A program made the translations under genes and the position numbers. A stretch of DNA of 64,000 nt, from NCBI RefSeq assembly GCF_003261055.1, contig NZ_CP030073.1, positions 3,286,001 through 3,350,000 of the forward strand. The letters are read 5' to 3'. Source of the DNA: Streptomyces cadmiisoli. GTDB lineage: Bacteria; Actinomycetota; Actinomycetes; Streptomycetales; Streptomycetaceae. Shown one piece after another: positions 60,825 through 63,822 of this stretch (the first letter of the stretch is position 1; each line of letters begins with the position of its first letter). The notes under the pieces were generated by a model that was given only the letters and a program-made list of their open reading frames with translations, was not told where the DNA came from and made no database searches.

Positions 60825-60880
60825 TCGTGTCCGTCCGTCCGGTCCCGCCCGCGGCCCGGCAGGTCGAGGAGGTCAGCACG

Positions 60881-61822
60881 ATGTCCGAATGGTCCGTCGC
60901 CGAGCCGAGCAAGCTCACCTTCGACGAACCCTTGAGCGAACTCCAGGTGCGCATCGTCAACGGAACGGTGAACGTGGTGGGGACCGACGAGGGTTCCGCC
61001 CGCCTGGAGGTCGGCGAGATCGAGGGGCCGCCGCTGCTGGTCACCCGGCAGGGCGGCACGCTCACCGTGGCGTACGAGGACCTGCCCTGGAAGGGCTTCC
61101 TGAAGTGGCTCGACCGCAAGGGCTGGCGGCGCAGCGCCGTGGTCACACTGGCCGTGCCGGCCGCCACCCGGGTCGAGGTGGGTGTGGTCGGCGCCGCCGC
61201 CGTGGTCTCCGGCATCGAGGGACGGGCGGAGGTGAAGGGCGTCTCCGGGGACACGACCCTCGTGGGACTCTCCGGCCCGGTCCGCGCCGACACCGTCTCG
61301 GGCAGCGTGGAGGCGCAGGCCCTCTCGGGCGACCTGCGCTTCAACTCCGTCTCGGGTGACCTGACGGTGGTCGAGGGCGCGGGGTCCTCGGTGCGGGCCG
61401 ACTCGGTCAGCGGCTCGATGATCGTCGACCTGGACCCGACGGGCGGCCCCACCGACATCAGCCTGAACAGCGTCTCCGGCGAGATCGCGATCCGGCTGCC
61501 GCATCCGGCGGACGCGGAGGTGGAGGCCAACACCGCGAGCGGCACGGTCTCCAACGCCTTCGAGGATCTGCGGGTGACGGGTCAGTGGGGGGCGAAGCGG
61601 ATCACGGGCCGCCTCGGCTCGGGCAGCGGCCGGCTGAAGGCCACGACGGTATCCGGCTCCATCGCCCTGCTGCGGCGCCCGCCGTCGCAGGACGGGCCGT
61701 GGGACGGCGCGCCGGACGGACCGCGGCGGGAACCGGGGGAGAATTCGGCGTCCGGCCAGGACGTCAGGACGACCACACCCGACGCCCCGGCCGACGGTAC
61801 GACCGACAAGAAGGTGCTCTGA
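60881..61822 (+). CDS. DUF4097 beta-strand repeat protein
   Basis: A 313-residue protein with a beta-helix-like fold. Repeats of the S-G-(S/D)-x-x-x-x-x pattern run from about 105 to 230: VSGIEG, GVSGDTTLVGLSG, TVSGSVEAQALSGDLRFNSVSGDL, SVSGSMIVDLDP, SVSGEIAIRL. DUF4097 proteins often accompany PadR regulators and membrane stress systems. ATG 60881 has GAGGAGG upstream. No signal peptide; the ~40-residue tail is disordered. Ends 1 nt before padR. Confidence 0.85.
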   Translation: MSEWSVAEPSKLTFDEPLSELQVRIVNGTVNVVGTDEGSARLEVGEIEGPPLLVTRQGGTLTVAYEDLPWKGFLKWLDRKGWRRSAVVTLAVPAATRVEVGVVGAAAVVSGIEGRAEVKGVSGDTTLVGLSGPVRADTVSGSVEAQALSGDLRFNSVSGDLTVVEGAGSSVRADSVSGSMIVDLDPTGGPTDISLNSVSGEIAIRLPHPADAEVEANTASGTVSNAFEDLRVTGQWGAKRITGRLGSGSGRLKATTVSGSIALLRRPPSQDGPWDGAPDGPRREPGENSASGQDVRTTTPDAPADGTTDKKVL

Positions 61823-61823
61823 C

Positions 61824-62885
61824 ATGCCTCCCGTCTTCGCCCACGGCCGCCTGCGTCTCTACCTGCTGAAACTGCTGGACGAGGCCCCGCGCCACGGCTA
61901 CGAGGTGATCCGCCTCCTGGAGGAGCGCTTCCAGGGGCTGTACGCGCCGTCGGCGGGCACGGTCTACCCGCGCCTCGCCAAGCTGGAGGCCGAGGGCCTG
62001 GTCACACACACCACCGAGGGCGGCCGCAAGGTGTACGCCATCACGGACGCGGGCCGCGCCGAACTGGCCGACCGCAGCGGTGAACTGGCCGATCTGGAGC
62101 TGGAGATCCGCGAGTCGGTGGCGGAGCTGGCAGCCGAGATCCGCGCCGACGTACGCGGCGCGGCGGGCGACCTGCGGCGCGAGATGCGGGCCGCGGCGAC
62201 CGAGGCCCGCACCGGCACCGACGGCCGCGGCACCGCCGGGGACTCCGCAGGCCAGGGCGGCTTCGGCGGTTACGGCGACAGCGAGGCCTGGCGCGCCGCC
62301 AAGGAGGAGATGCGCCGCGTGAAGCAGGAGTGGAAGGAGCAGGCCCGGCGCGCCAAGGACGAGAGCCGCCGGGCGCGCGAGGAGGCCCAGCGGGCCCGGC
62401 ACCAGGCCAAGGAGGCGCAGGACCGTGCGCGGGCCCAGGCGACGGAGGAGGTGCAGCGCATCGCGCAGCGGGTCCAGGAACAGGTGCAGGACCACTTCTC
62501 GCGGGGCGACTGGCCCACGGGCGTACGCGAGGGCCTGACGGAACTCGCCAAGGAGTTCGGCGACTTCGGCAAGCACTTCGGGGAGGACTTCGGCAAGGAC
62601 TTCGGCTTCGGCCGCGGCGGCGCCGACAAGCCGGCCCCGGGACCGGACCGTGCGGCGGAGCCGCGGGACGTCCCGGCCGACCCCGAGCCGGCCTGGGCGC
62701 ACGACGACGCCTCCACGGGCGACCCCGCCCGCGACCTGGACCGTCTGCTGGACCGCTTCCGCGACGACATCCGCGACGCGGCCCGCGACAACGGCGTCAC
62801 CCCGGCCCAGCTCCGCGACGCCCGACGCCATCTGTCCACGGCGGCGGCCCACATCGGAGTGCTTCTGCGCTCCCCGAAGCAGTAG
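61824..62885 (+). CDS. PadR-family regulator with long coiled-coil C-terminus
   Basis: A 353-residue PadR regulator, about twice normal length. The winged helix LYLLKLLDEAPRHGYEVIRLLEERFQG...SAGTVYPRLAKLEAEGLVTH (about 12-60) is clear. It is followed by an acidic/basic coiled coil (85-225, with AKEEMRRVKQEWKEQARRAKDESRRAREEAQRARHQAK), a HFGEDFGKDFGFGRGG stretch and a final helical region. ATG 61824 is 1 nt after the DUF4097 stop. It probably represses its own operon through the palindrome upstream. The extended tail may sense or bind a partner. Confidence 0.88.
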   Translation: MPPVFAHGRLRLYLLKLLDEAPRHGYEVIRLLEERFQGLYAPSAGTVYPRLAKLEAEGLVTHTTEGGRKVYAITDAGRAELADRSGELADLELEIRESVAELAAEIRADVRGAAGDLRREMRAAATEARTGTDGRGTAGDSAGQGGFGGYGDSEAWRAAKEEMRRVKQEWKEQARRAKDESRRAREEAQRARHQAKEAQDRARAQATEEVQRIAQRVQEQVQDHFSRGDWPTGVREGLTELAKEFGDFGKHFGEDFGKDFGFGRGGADKPAPGPDRAAEPRDVPADPEPAWAHDDASTGDPARDLDRLLDRFRDDIRDAARDNGVTPAQLRDARRHLSTAAAHIGVLLRSPKQ

Positions 62886-63002: not shown

Positions 63003-63566
63003 TCAGCCCGCCTCGACCTCTCCCCCGCCGTCCAGCACCCGCGTGACCGTGTCGTACGTGACCCCGTGGTCCGCGAGCACCTCCGCGGCGACGCCCGGCC
63101 GGGAGGCGAGGGCGAGGAGGATGTGCTCGTCCCCGATGTGGCGGTCCCGGCGGGCGACGGCGATGCGCAGGGACCTCTCCAGTACGTCCTTGGCGTCCCG
63201 GCCGAAGGAACCGCCCCCGGACCACCGCCCCCGGTCCTCGCGCTTCCCCGACATGGCGCCCACGCCGTGCGCCTCCTCCACCCGCGAGACGATCTCCGCG
63301 ACGTCGATGCCCAGTCCGGCCAGGGCGTCCGTGTCCGCCTGCGACAGCCCGGCGCGGCGGCGGGCCTCGTCCAGTGCCCGCGTCACCGACCCGGCACGCC
63401 CGGACAGCCCCAGTTCGGCCAGCGCGAAAGCGCCCCGGCCCTCGCCCCGGTCGAGCAGCGCCAGCAGCAGGTGCTCGGCCTCGACGGTCCCCGTCTCCGT
63501 GCTCTCGCGGTGCGCGACGGCCCCCTTGACCACGGCGCGGGCGTCCTTCGTGAACCGTTCGAACAT
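63003..63566 (-). CDS. Clp N-domain protein (ClpC-like N-terminal repeats only)
   Basis: A 187-residue protein consisting of two Clp_N repeats: MFERFTKDARAVVKGAVAHRES...EAEHLLLALLDRGEGRGAFALAELGLS and AKDVLERSLRIAVARRDRHIGDEHILLALASRPGVAAEVLADHG. There is no AAA+ domain, so it cannot unfold proteins itself; it may act as an adaptor, substrate sink or regulator for ClpC. ATG 63566 has GGAGG 5 nt upstream (ATG 63569 is also possible). It overlaps the HTH gene, so both are made together. Confidence 0.85.
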   Translation of the reverse strand: MFERFTKDARAVVKGAVAHRESTETGTVEAEHLLLALLDRGEGRGAFALAELGLSGRAGSVTRALDEARRRAGLSQADTDALAGLGIDVAEIVSRVEEAHGVGAMSGKREDRGRWSGGGSFGRDAKDVLERSLRIAVARRDRHIGDEHILLALASRPGVAAEVLADHGVTYDTVTRVLDGGGEVEAG

Positions 63567-63775
63567 CATCGCCTCCCGTACTTCTTGTGCACGGCCTGCC
63601 TGCTCACGCCGAGTTCCGCGGCGATCTCCTGCCACGACCAGCCCTGATTGCGCGCGTTGCGCACCTGGACGGCCTCCAACTGCTCCAGCAGCCGCCGCAG
63701 CGCGGCGACCGCGCGCAGTCCGATCCGCGGATCGCGGTCACCGGCCCGCTCGGCGAGTTCCGTAGCTTCCGTCAT
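63566..63775 (-). CDS. Small HTH protein coupled to the Clp N-domain gene
   Basis: A 69-residue protein with a helix-turn-helix: WQEIAAELGVSRQAVHKKYG (about 49-68), preceded by a helical dimerisation-like region (LRAVAALRRLLEQLEAVQVRNARNQ). The stop overlaps the start of the Clp N-domain gene (TGATG). Its own promoter is bracketed by two GTCAAC-N4-GTTGAC operators, which it most likely binds itself. ATG 63775 has no leader; an upstream TTG is unlikely. Confidence 0.82.
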   Translation of the reverse strand: MTEATELAERAGDRDPRIGLRAVAALRRLLEQLEAVQVRNARNQGWSWQEIAAELGVSRQAVHKKYGRR

Positions 63776-63779
63776 GCAT

Positions 63780-63822
63780 GTCAACCTACGTTGACGTCAG
63801 TCATCCGTCAACCCCAGTTGAC
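63780..63822 (-). promoter_or_regulatory. Leaderless promoter with two operators over -35 and -10 (HTH-ClpN locus)
   Basis: Read on the minus strand, -35 TTGACG (63811-63806), 17-bp spacer and -10 TAGGTT (63788-63783) are followed after 7 nt by the ATG at 63775, so the transcript is leaderless. GTCAAC-N4-GTTGAC occurs twice: 63807-63822 covers the -35 and 63780-63795 covers the -10. Both have perfect 6-bp arms and start 27 nt apart. Confidence 0.85.

Follow-up and report, generated by a model that had tools for sequence, protein, structure and literature searches.

The window analysed here is a stretch of 64,000 nucleotides of the Streptomyces cadmiisoli chromosome. Near one of its ends lie two small overlapping genes, one for a helix-turn-helix (HTH) protein and one for a protein made only of Clp N-terminal repeats (ClpN), downstream of two perfect inverted repeats. 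Is this pair an autoregulated system of a new kind or a form of a known one, and which of its two proteins reads the repeats? Antituberculosis drugs are aimed at ClpC1, and cells are known to blunt one class of them by means of ClpC2; a second, split and widespread module of this type suggests a further, unexamined level of protection or control in a genus that makes several such drugs.

Organization of the HTH/ClpN locus

The features of the locus are given in Table 1. The open reading frames and Pfam matches bear out the original prediction of a 69 amino acid HTH gene overlapping a gene for Clp N-repeats alone; P0001 consists of two Clp_N stretches (E 4.1e-17) without an AAA+ module, and it matches the N-domains of ClpC1 and ClpC2 both by sequence and by fold. 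The junction had been described as TGATG; the overlap stands, read here as ATGA, although a ClpN start at the second ATG, which gives TGATG, is just as plausible. The GGGAGG 5' of the ATGA overlap is likely the ribosome site for ClpN. Helices are predicted in the HTH protein at residues 3–10, 16–43, 48–55 and 59–66, the last of which, carrying A61 and K64, is presumed to be the recognition helix; the AlphaFold2 model of this protein has a mean pLDDT of 88.7. Genes for a DUF4097 protein and then a PadR regulator (window positions 60827–62885) adjoin the pair.

Table 1. Features of the HTH/ClpN locus (window positions)
Feature	Position	Strand	Remarks	Basis
188-aa ClpN-only protein (P0001)	63003..63569	minus		Pfam Clp_N
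ATGA overlap of the HTH and ClpN genes	63566..63569	minus	preceded by GGGAGG	sequence
69-aa HTH protein (P0002)	63566..63775	minus		translation and Pfam HTH_11/HTH_23
Proximal operator, GTCAAC-CTAC-GTTGAC	63780..63795	plus	holds putative -10, TAGGTT on minus strand	exact match
Distal operator, GTCAAC-CCCA-GTTGAC	63807..63822	plus	over putative -35; minus strand gives TTGAC	exact match

Operators and promoter

The two GTCAAC-N4-GTTGAC sites start 27 bp apart. A scan of the 10.24-Mb genome for the exact pattern with either N4 or N5 found six places, two of them with N4 and both of these at the HTH/ClpN locus, and the reversed control pattern occurred at two places in the same scan; the two-operator observation at this locus is far above chance.

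Named genomes were scanned with an alignment of the HTH, which gave at least 562 relatives among at least 594 pattern matches, and the best 80 were kept (79 from Streptomyces and one from an "Actinobacteria bacterium"). All of these best 80 of at least 562 have two N4 sites, at -46 to -48 and at -19 or -20 from the ATG (L114 also has a third, weak, overlapping match); with the exact 16-mers of the window, this conserved geometry upholds the claim of two perfect repeats placed over the -35 and the -10. Within the same best 80 of at least 562, the distal site provides TTGAC, a TAnnnT hexamer lies inside the proximal site in 77, the spacing from TTGAC to the hexamer is 17–18 nt in 79 and 19 nt in one, and the hexamer ends 6–7 nt before the ATG in every case. 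Because this spacing and this distance to the ATG fit, the operators probably cover the -35 and -10 elements, and the HTH/ClpN message is probably leaderless, as had been proposed. A generic σ70 consensus scan called no promoter at the locus.

Distribution of the split pair

A search for HTH–ClpN pairs and the 16-mer elsewhere, suggested along with the original prediction, found both the pair and N4 sites in all 80 named-genome loci (the best 80 of at least 562). The ClpN gene is the next gene after the HTH gene throughout, recognized by pattern in 79 and by eye in L123 (MFERL), and a -4 (ATGA) overlap is present in 75 of those 79. In the window genome and its relatives, each of 30 loci has two sites with N4 spacing followed by a start for ClpN; the ClpN frame of L010 runs on and that of L019 is short, and these two are possibly decayed or sequence errors. 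The named and other locus sets overlap (for example, L083/L009, L127/L013 and L140/L021 are the same places).

Across the class, the split-HTH profile at 1e-9 has matches in 188 of 394 genomes and 75 of 137 genera. Seventy-one loci were hand-picked for family spread (L174–L176 and L188–L255; a further 24 Streptomyces-genus loci, L150–L173, and L256 were left unused), and here the wider search found ClpN behind the HTH in 67, a fused protein in none and no ClpN in four; since the loci were chosen by the split-HTH profile, the zero is no survey of fused proteins. As four loci (L194 and L246, which were inspected by eye, and L250 and L255) lack a recognizable ClpN, the HTH can persist alone; these loci have N4-type sites, one of them weak. 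When up to two mismatches are allowed, 55 of the 71 loci have at least two N4 sites, 12 have one and four have none; the best-scoring site is of the N4 type in all 67 loci that have a site. Among the other four, L247–L249 carry GTCAGT-type N4 repeats and L192 carries none. The split arrangement with N4 sites also occurs at two named loci, one in Nonomuraea gerenzanensis and one in Nocardia farcinica.

Relationship to ClpC2

The statement that no system of this form had been described does not hold, as mycobacterial ClpC2 has the same half-sites, the same two-site layout and a leaderless promoter, with the whole module in one polypeptide (PMC10030653). According to the sections of PMC10030653 drawn on here, ClpC2 (Rv2667 in M. 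tuberculosis, with a counterpart in M. smegmatis) is a single protein that has its dimer domain at the N-terminus and ClpN at the C-terminus, its operator is CGTCAAC-n5-GTTGACG, and many species have two copies over a putative -35 and -10; it autorepresses, and cyclomarin A derepresses clpC2 and is sequestered by its product. The split pair is like ClpC2 in its HTH-bearing homologous N-region, its F2/F80/E89-type ClpN pocket, its half-sites and, judging here from sequence geometry, its leaderless promoter with two operators placed over the -35 and -10. It differs in having two overlapping genes with a stop rather than one polypeptide, in an N4 rather than an n5 spacer, and in the absence of an equivalent of ClpC2 R189 from the window ClpN; the autorepression measured for ClpC2 (PMC10030653) is one that we infer for the split pair. 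Because the HTH is homologous to the fused N-domain, and the ClpN protein to the N-domains of ClpC1 and ClpC2, we conclude that the window pair is a split, paralogous, two-gene form of the ClpC2 module.

The window genome also contains a fused ClpC2 protein (L035 2816–3559; contig C1, 4265268–4266055, corresponding to L035 2769–3556), which matches the ClpC2 structures 8AD9 (E 3.9e-39) and 8ADA (E 5.6e-28) and whose N5 sites lie at -47 and -19. The operators of the window pair and of the fused ClpC2 of the same genome differ most clearly in the length of the spacer. Fused loci have N5 sites in all 29 readable cases of 30; L068 has no motif, and for L040 and L064 the choice of an upstream start limits the sites counted to one each. 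Comparison of the HTH profile with that of the fused N-domain by hhalign gave 96.1% probability (E 3.3e-9, 43 columns, 35% identity). The ClpC2 N-domain chain 8ADA was not listed in a single-sequence PDB search with the window HTH, and in a Foldseek search with the HTH model it was absent from the best 50 of 423 matches (best E 0.79); 8ADA itself lacks the recognition helix.

The split family consists of separate paralogues: both forms occur together in 22 of 37 Streptomyces-genus genomes, the split form by itself in seven, the fused form by itself in seven and neither in one. The weakest accepted matches, 5.7e-17 for the split and 1.8e-49 for the fused form, are both in genome G010, whose fused match (C2, 63636–64342) is in two overlapping stretches, query 10–93 and 84–240, in two frames. 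In a tree of ClpN domains the fused proteins form one clade (100/100) and the ClpC N-domains another (100/99), and the split proteins fall on both sides.

Three PDB entries for ClpC2 C-domains, 9p2p, 9p39 and 9p4h, match the Streptomyces fused protein at E 4.4e-67; because this is better than the match of the mycobacterial C-domains, a close ClpC2, perhaps from Streptomyces, appears to have been crystallized already. A literature search found no paper for these three entries. The protein called "ClpC2" in papers on acyldepsipeptides and Streptomyces (PMC9765437, PMC12607617) has, as those papers present it in the parts cited, only the name in common with the module discussed here; unlike the split pair, it is a Clp-ATPase and powers degradation by ClpP1P2 (PMC9765437), and this is a clash of naming.

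Which protein reads the operator

As a variant of the described ClpC2, the split pair adds a testable correction to the ClpC2 model. The published work assigns DNA binding to the ClpN domain of ClpC2, to arginines R185 and R189, by EMSA (PMC10030653), and by that account the ClpN protein would read the DNA and the HTH would serve for dimerization alone. The R185A/R189A double mutant binds DNA more weakly and the matching arginine mutant of M. smegmatis has 2.0-fold more clpC2 mRNA, but the dimer mutant R57A raises the mRNA further, 4.6-fold (both PMC10030653, as far as cited here). The place of R189 is occupied by A or G in 27 of 28 window-type ClpNs and by A, G, S or V in all 79 named-genome ClpNs (from the best 80 of at least 562), whereas all 28 fused proteins have R there; on the other side, R is found at this place in 10 of the 67 class-wide split ClpNs. 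The place of R185 is R in ClpC1 as well, and ClpC1 is reported to bind the operator weakly and with little specificity (PMC10030653). The solved pieces of ClpC2 comprise residues 4–72 and 94–252 (PMC10030653), and the recognition helix of the fused Streptomyces protein, T73–F81, falls in the gap of 73–93 between them, when 8ADA is numbered one-to-one with that protein (10–72 to 10–72).

A second line of evidence is covariation between the HTH and its operator. A readable repeat was present in 97 of 101 loci, and removal of duplicates left 95 distinct HTHs; among these, A at residue 61 accompanies A at operator base 5 in 83 and S or T accompanies G in 10, with two exceptions, one each way; in the exception with S (L232), one half-site has the G. 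Residue 61 ranks first of the 69 positions in mutual information with base 5 (0.44 of 0.57 bits). Residues 64, 12 and 17 come next with 0.41, 0.38 and 0.35, and because they score so near residue 61, kinship must inflate the signal; the best ClpN tree needs three changes, and its well-supported branches force one. Half-sites that have drifted to GTCAGT or GTCAGC, with N4 kept, go with S or T at residue 61 in L247, L248, L249, L230 and L242, and the same drift with S or T is found in L189, L193, L224, L235 and L243.

Because the match between residue 61 and base 5 is nearly one-to-one and lies inside the recognition helix, the HTH is most likely the reader of the operator, and we regard direct reading by ClpN as very unlikely. 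E31 and R42 of the HTH, invariant in 19 rows, correspond in position to D46 and R57, the salt bridge of the ClpC2 dimer; by analogy the HTH would form a dimer in which E31–R42 takes the part of that bridge. An HTH in ClpC2 is not itself new, because a 2026 paper already notes a RelI-like HTH region there by HHpred (PMC13284704, in the portion used here); the transfer of DNA reading to it is our inference from the sequence comparisons above. If this is right, the whole ClpC2 family would read DNA by an HTH that the published structures missed. The split pair naturally separates the DNA-reading and drug-binding halves, so the question of which half reads DNA is directly testable, and it offers a clean code for the operator, with residue 61 matched to base 5 and N4 spacing set against N5.

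The ClpN pocket and its evolution

Residues F2, F80 and E89 of ClpC1 are reported to be critical for cyclomarin (PMC10030653). The window ClpN keeps all three (F3, F122 and E131 in its own numbering), and among 28 window-type loci, its own included and L010 and L019 left out, F2 is kept in 28, F80 in 26 and E89 in 21. The corresponding numbers are 79, 75 and 51 for 79 named-genome ClpNs (from the best 80 of at least 562), with E89 replaced in the other 28, and 51, 45 and 45 for the 67 class-wide split ClpNs. Because E89 is often replaced and pocket residues are lost across the class, some split ClpNs may not bind cyclomarin. The fused Streptomyces-type proteins have E89 in 28 of 28 and Y at position 80 in 21 of 28; with pocket residues deviating in both, neither the split nor the fused form copies the ClpC1 pocket fully. 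In M. tuberculosis, of three peptides tested, only the cyclomarin type raises ClpC2, whereas ilamycin and ecumicin bind ClpC2 without triggering it (PMC12913811, from the part cited); the range of ligands may therefore be narrow.

Median identity is 58% for ClpN (24 Streptomyces-genus loci) and 91% for the HTH (26 loci), and dN/dS is 0.36 for ClpN against 0.049 for the HTH (540 non-independent pairs of named-genome loci, the best 80 of at least 562). By these values selection on ClpN is looser yet purifying, and its fast change fits either shifting ligands or relaxed constraint. A decayed ClpC1/ClpA ATPase fragment, a pseudogene, was considered for ClpN and rejected on this dN/dS and on the conserved operon.

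Proposed mechanism and alternatives

The scheme that we favor on balance is a split ClpC2 module with autorepression by the HTH and a ClpN decoy. An HTH dimer would occupy both GTCAAC-N4-GTTGAC sites and shut its own leaderless promoter at the -35 and -10, leaving the pair nearly silent at rest. The ClpN protein made with it would duplicate the docking domain of ClpC1 as a free protein with a cyclomarin-type pocket; on arrival of a ClpC1-targeting peptide or another pocket ligand, ClpN would bind it and repression would be lifted. The HTH has no sensor domain, and its coupling to ClpN must therefore presumably act in trans: either the HTH needs ligand-free ClpN to stay on the DNA, or deregulation of ClpC1P leads to loss of the repressor. 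By analogy with ClpC2, the extra ClpN would soak up the ligand and spare ClpC1. The existence of a fused relative is a Rosetta-stone argument for joint action of HTH and ClpN, which does not imply contact between them. A literature search on the split pair found no binding, expression or phenotype data.

The tight autorepression originally predicted draws support from conservation and from the HTH–operator covariation. The predicted link to ClpC is backed by homology and by the fused ClpC2; the part in which ClpN would steer ClpC fares less well, since the ClpC2 precedent makes ligand sensing with a decoy likelier. The 1-bp difference in operator spacing, N4 against N5, may keep two paralogous circuits apart in one cell. 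A fuller proposal, in which a free Clp N-domain acts in trans to report its ligand to a separate HTH repressor, in a circuit insulated from that of ClpC2 by the 1-bp spacing, specialized for different Clp-targeting molecules and widespread in actinomycetes, is offered tentatively, as something we would rather doubt than assert.

The pair could instead be a regulator of proteostasis, in which ClpN and the N-domain of ClpC1 compete for substrates or adaptors, peptide binding is incidental, and stress or unfolded clients titrate ClpN off the HTH. The HTH of the pair is spread over more of the sampled genera than a defence against a single rare class of peptides would lead us to expect, and ClpC2 rises about twofold on heat and slows casein degradation when in excess (PMC10030653, as cited above). 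However, the fast change of ClpN contrasts with a ClpC N-domain that hardly varies (identical in 9 of 11 tree rows), which suits diverse outside ligands more than one fixed client surface, although relaxed constraint would look similar. We consider this explanation unlikely, though worth keeping in mind, and retain ligand sensing with a decoy as the preferred one.

A toxin–antitoxin-like pair, with the HTH as antitoxin and ClpN as a partner that modulates growth, seems extremely improbable, as the Clp N-domain is a docking domain for which we know of no catalytic site. The two overlapping genes flanked by operators recall such a pair, the HTH resembles RelI, the antitoxin of RelS–RelI (9sdc, E 0.018), and some RelI homologues are thought to derive from ClpC2 (PMC13284704); against this, the HTH stands without ClpN in four of the 71 class-wide loci, in PADLOC the HTH had only a weak match (mad1, E 0.0087) and ClpN had none, and deletion of the fused clpC2, which removes both parts, leaves growth about as in the wild type (PMC10030653). 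A RelI-type antitoxin with a RelE/BrnT-like toxin was rejected, the partner here being Clp_N by Pfam. RelS–RelI is like the split pair in having a small actinomycete HTH protein, similar in part to the HTH region of ClpC2, beside a partner gene, but in the portion of PMC13284704 used here it has an rRNA-cleaving toxin as partner and the reverse gene order, and inverted repeats were not found upstream.

The window genome has a second relative of the HTH (7120094–7120261, L069), which is 39% identical to it over residues 14–69 and lies in a longer frame; most of the Streptomyces-genus genomes scanned have counterparts of this type at the same identity.
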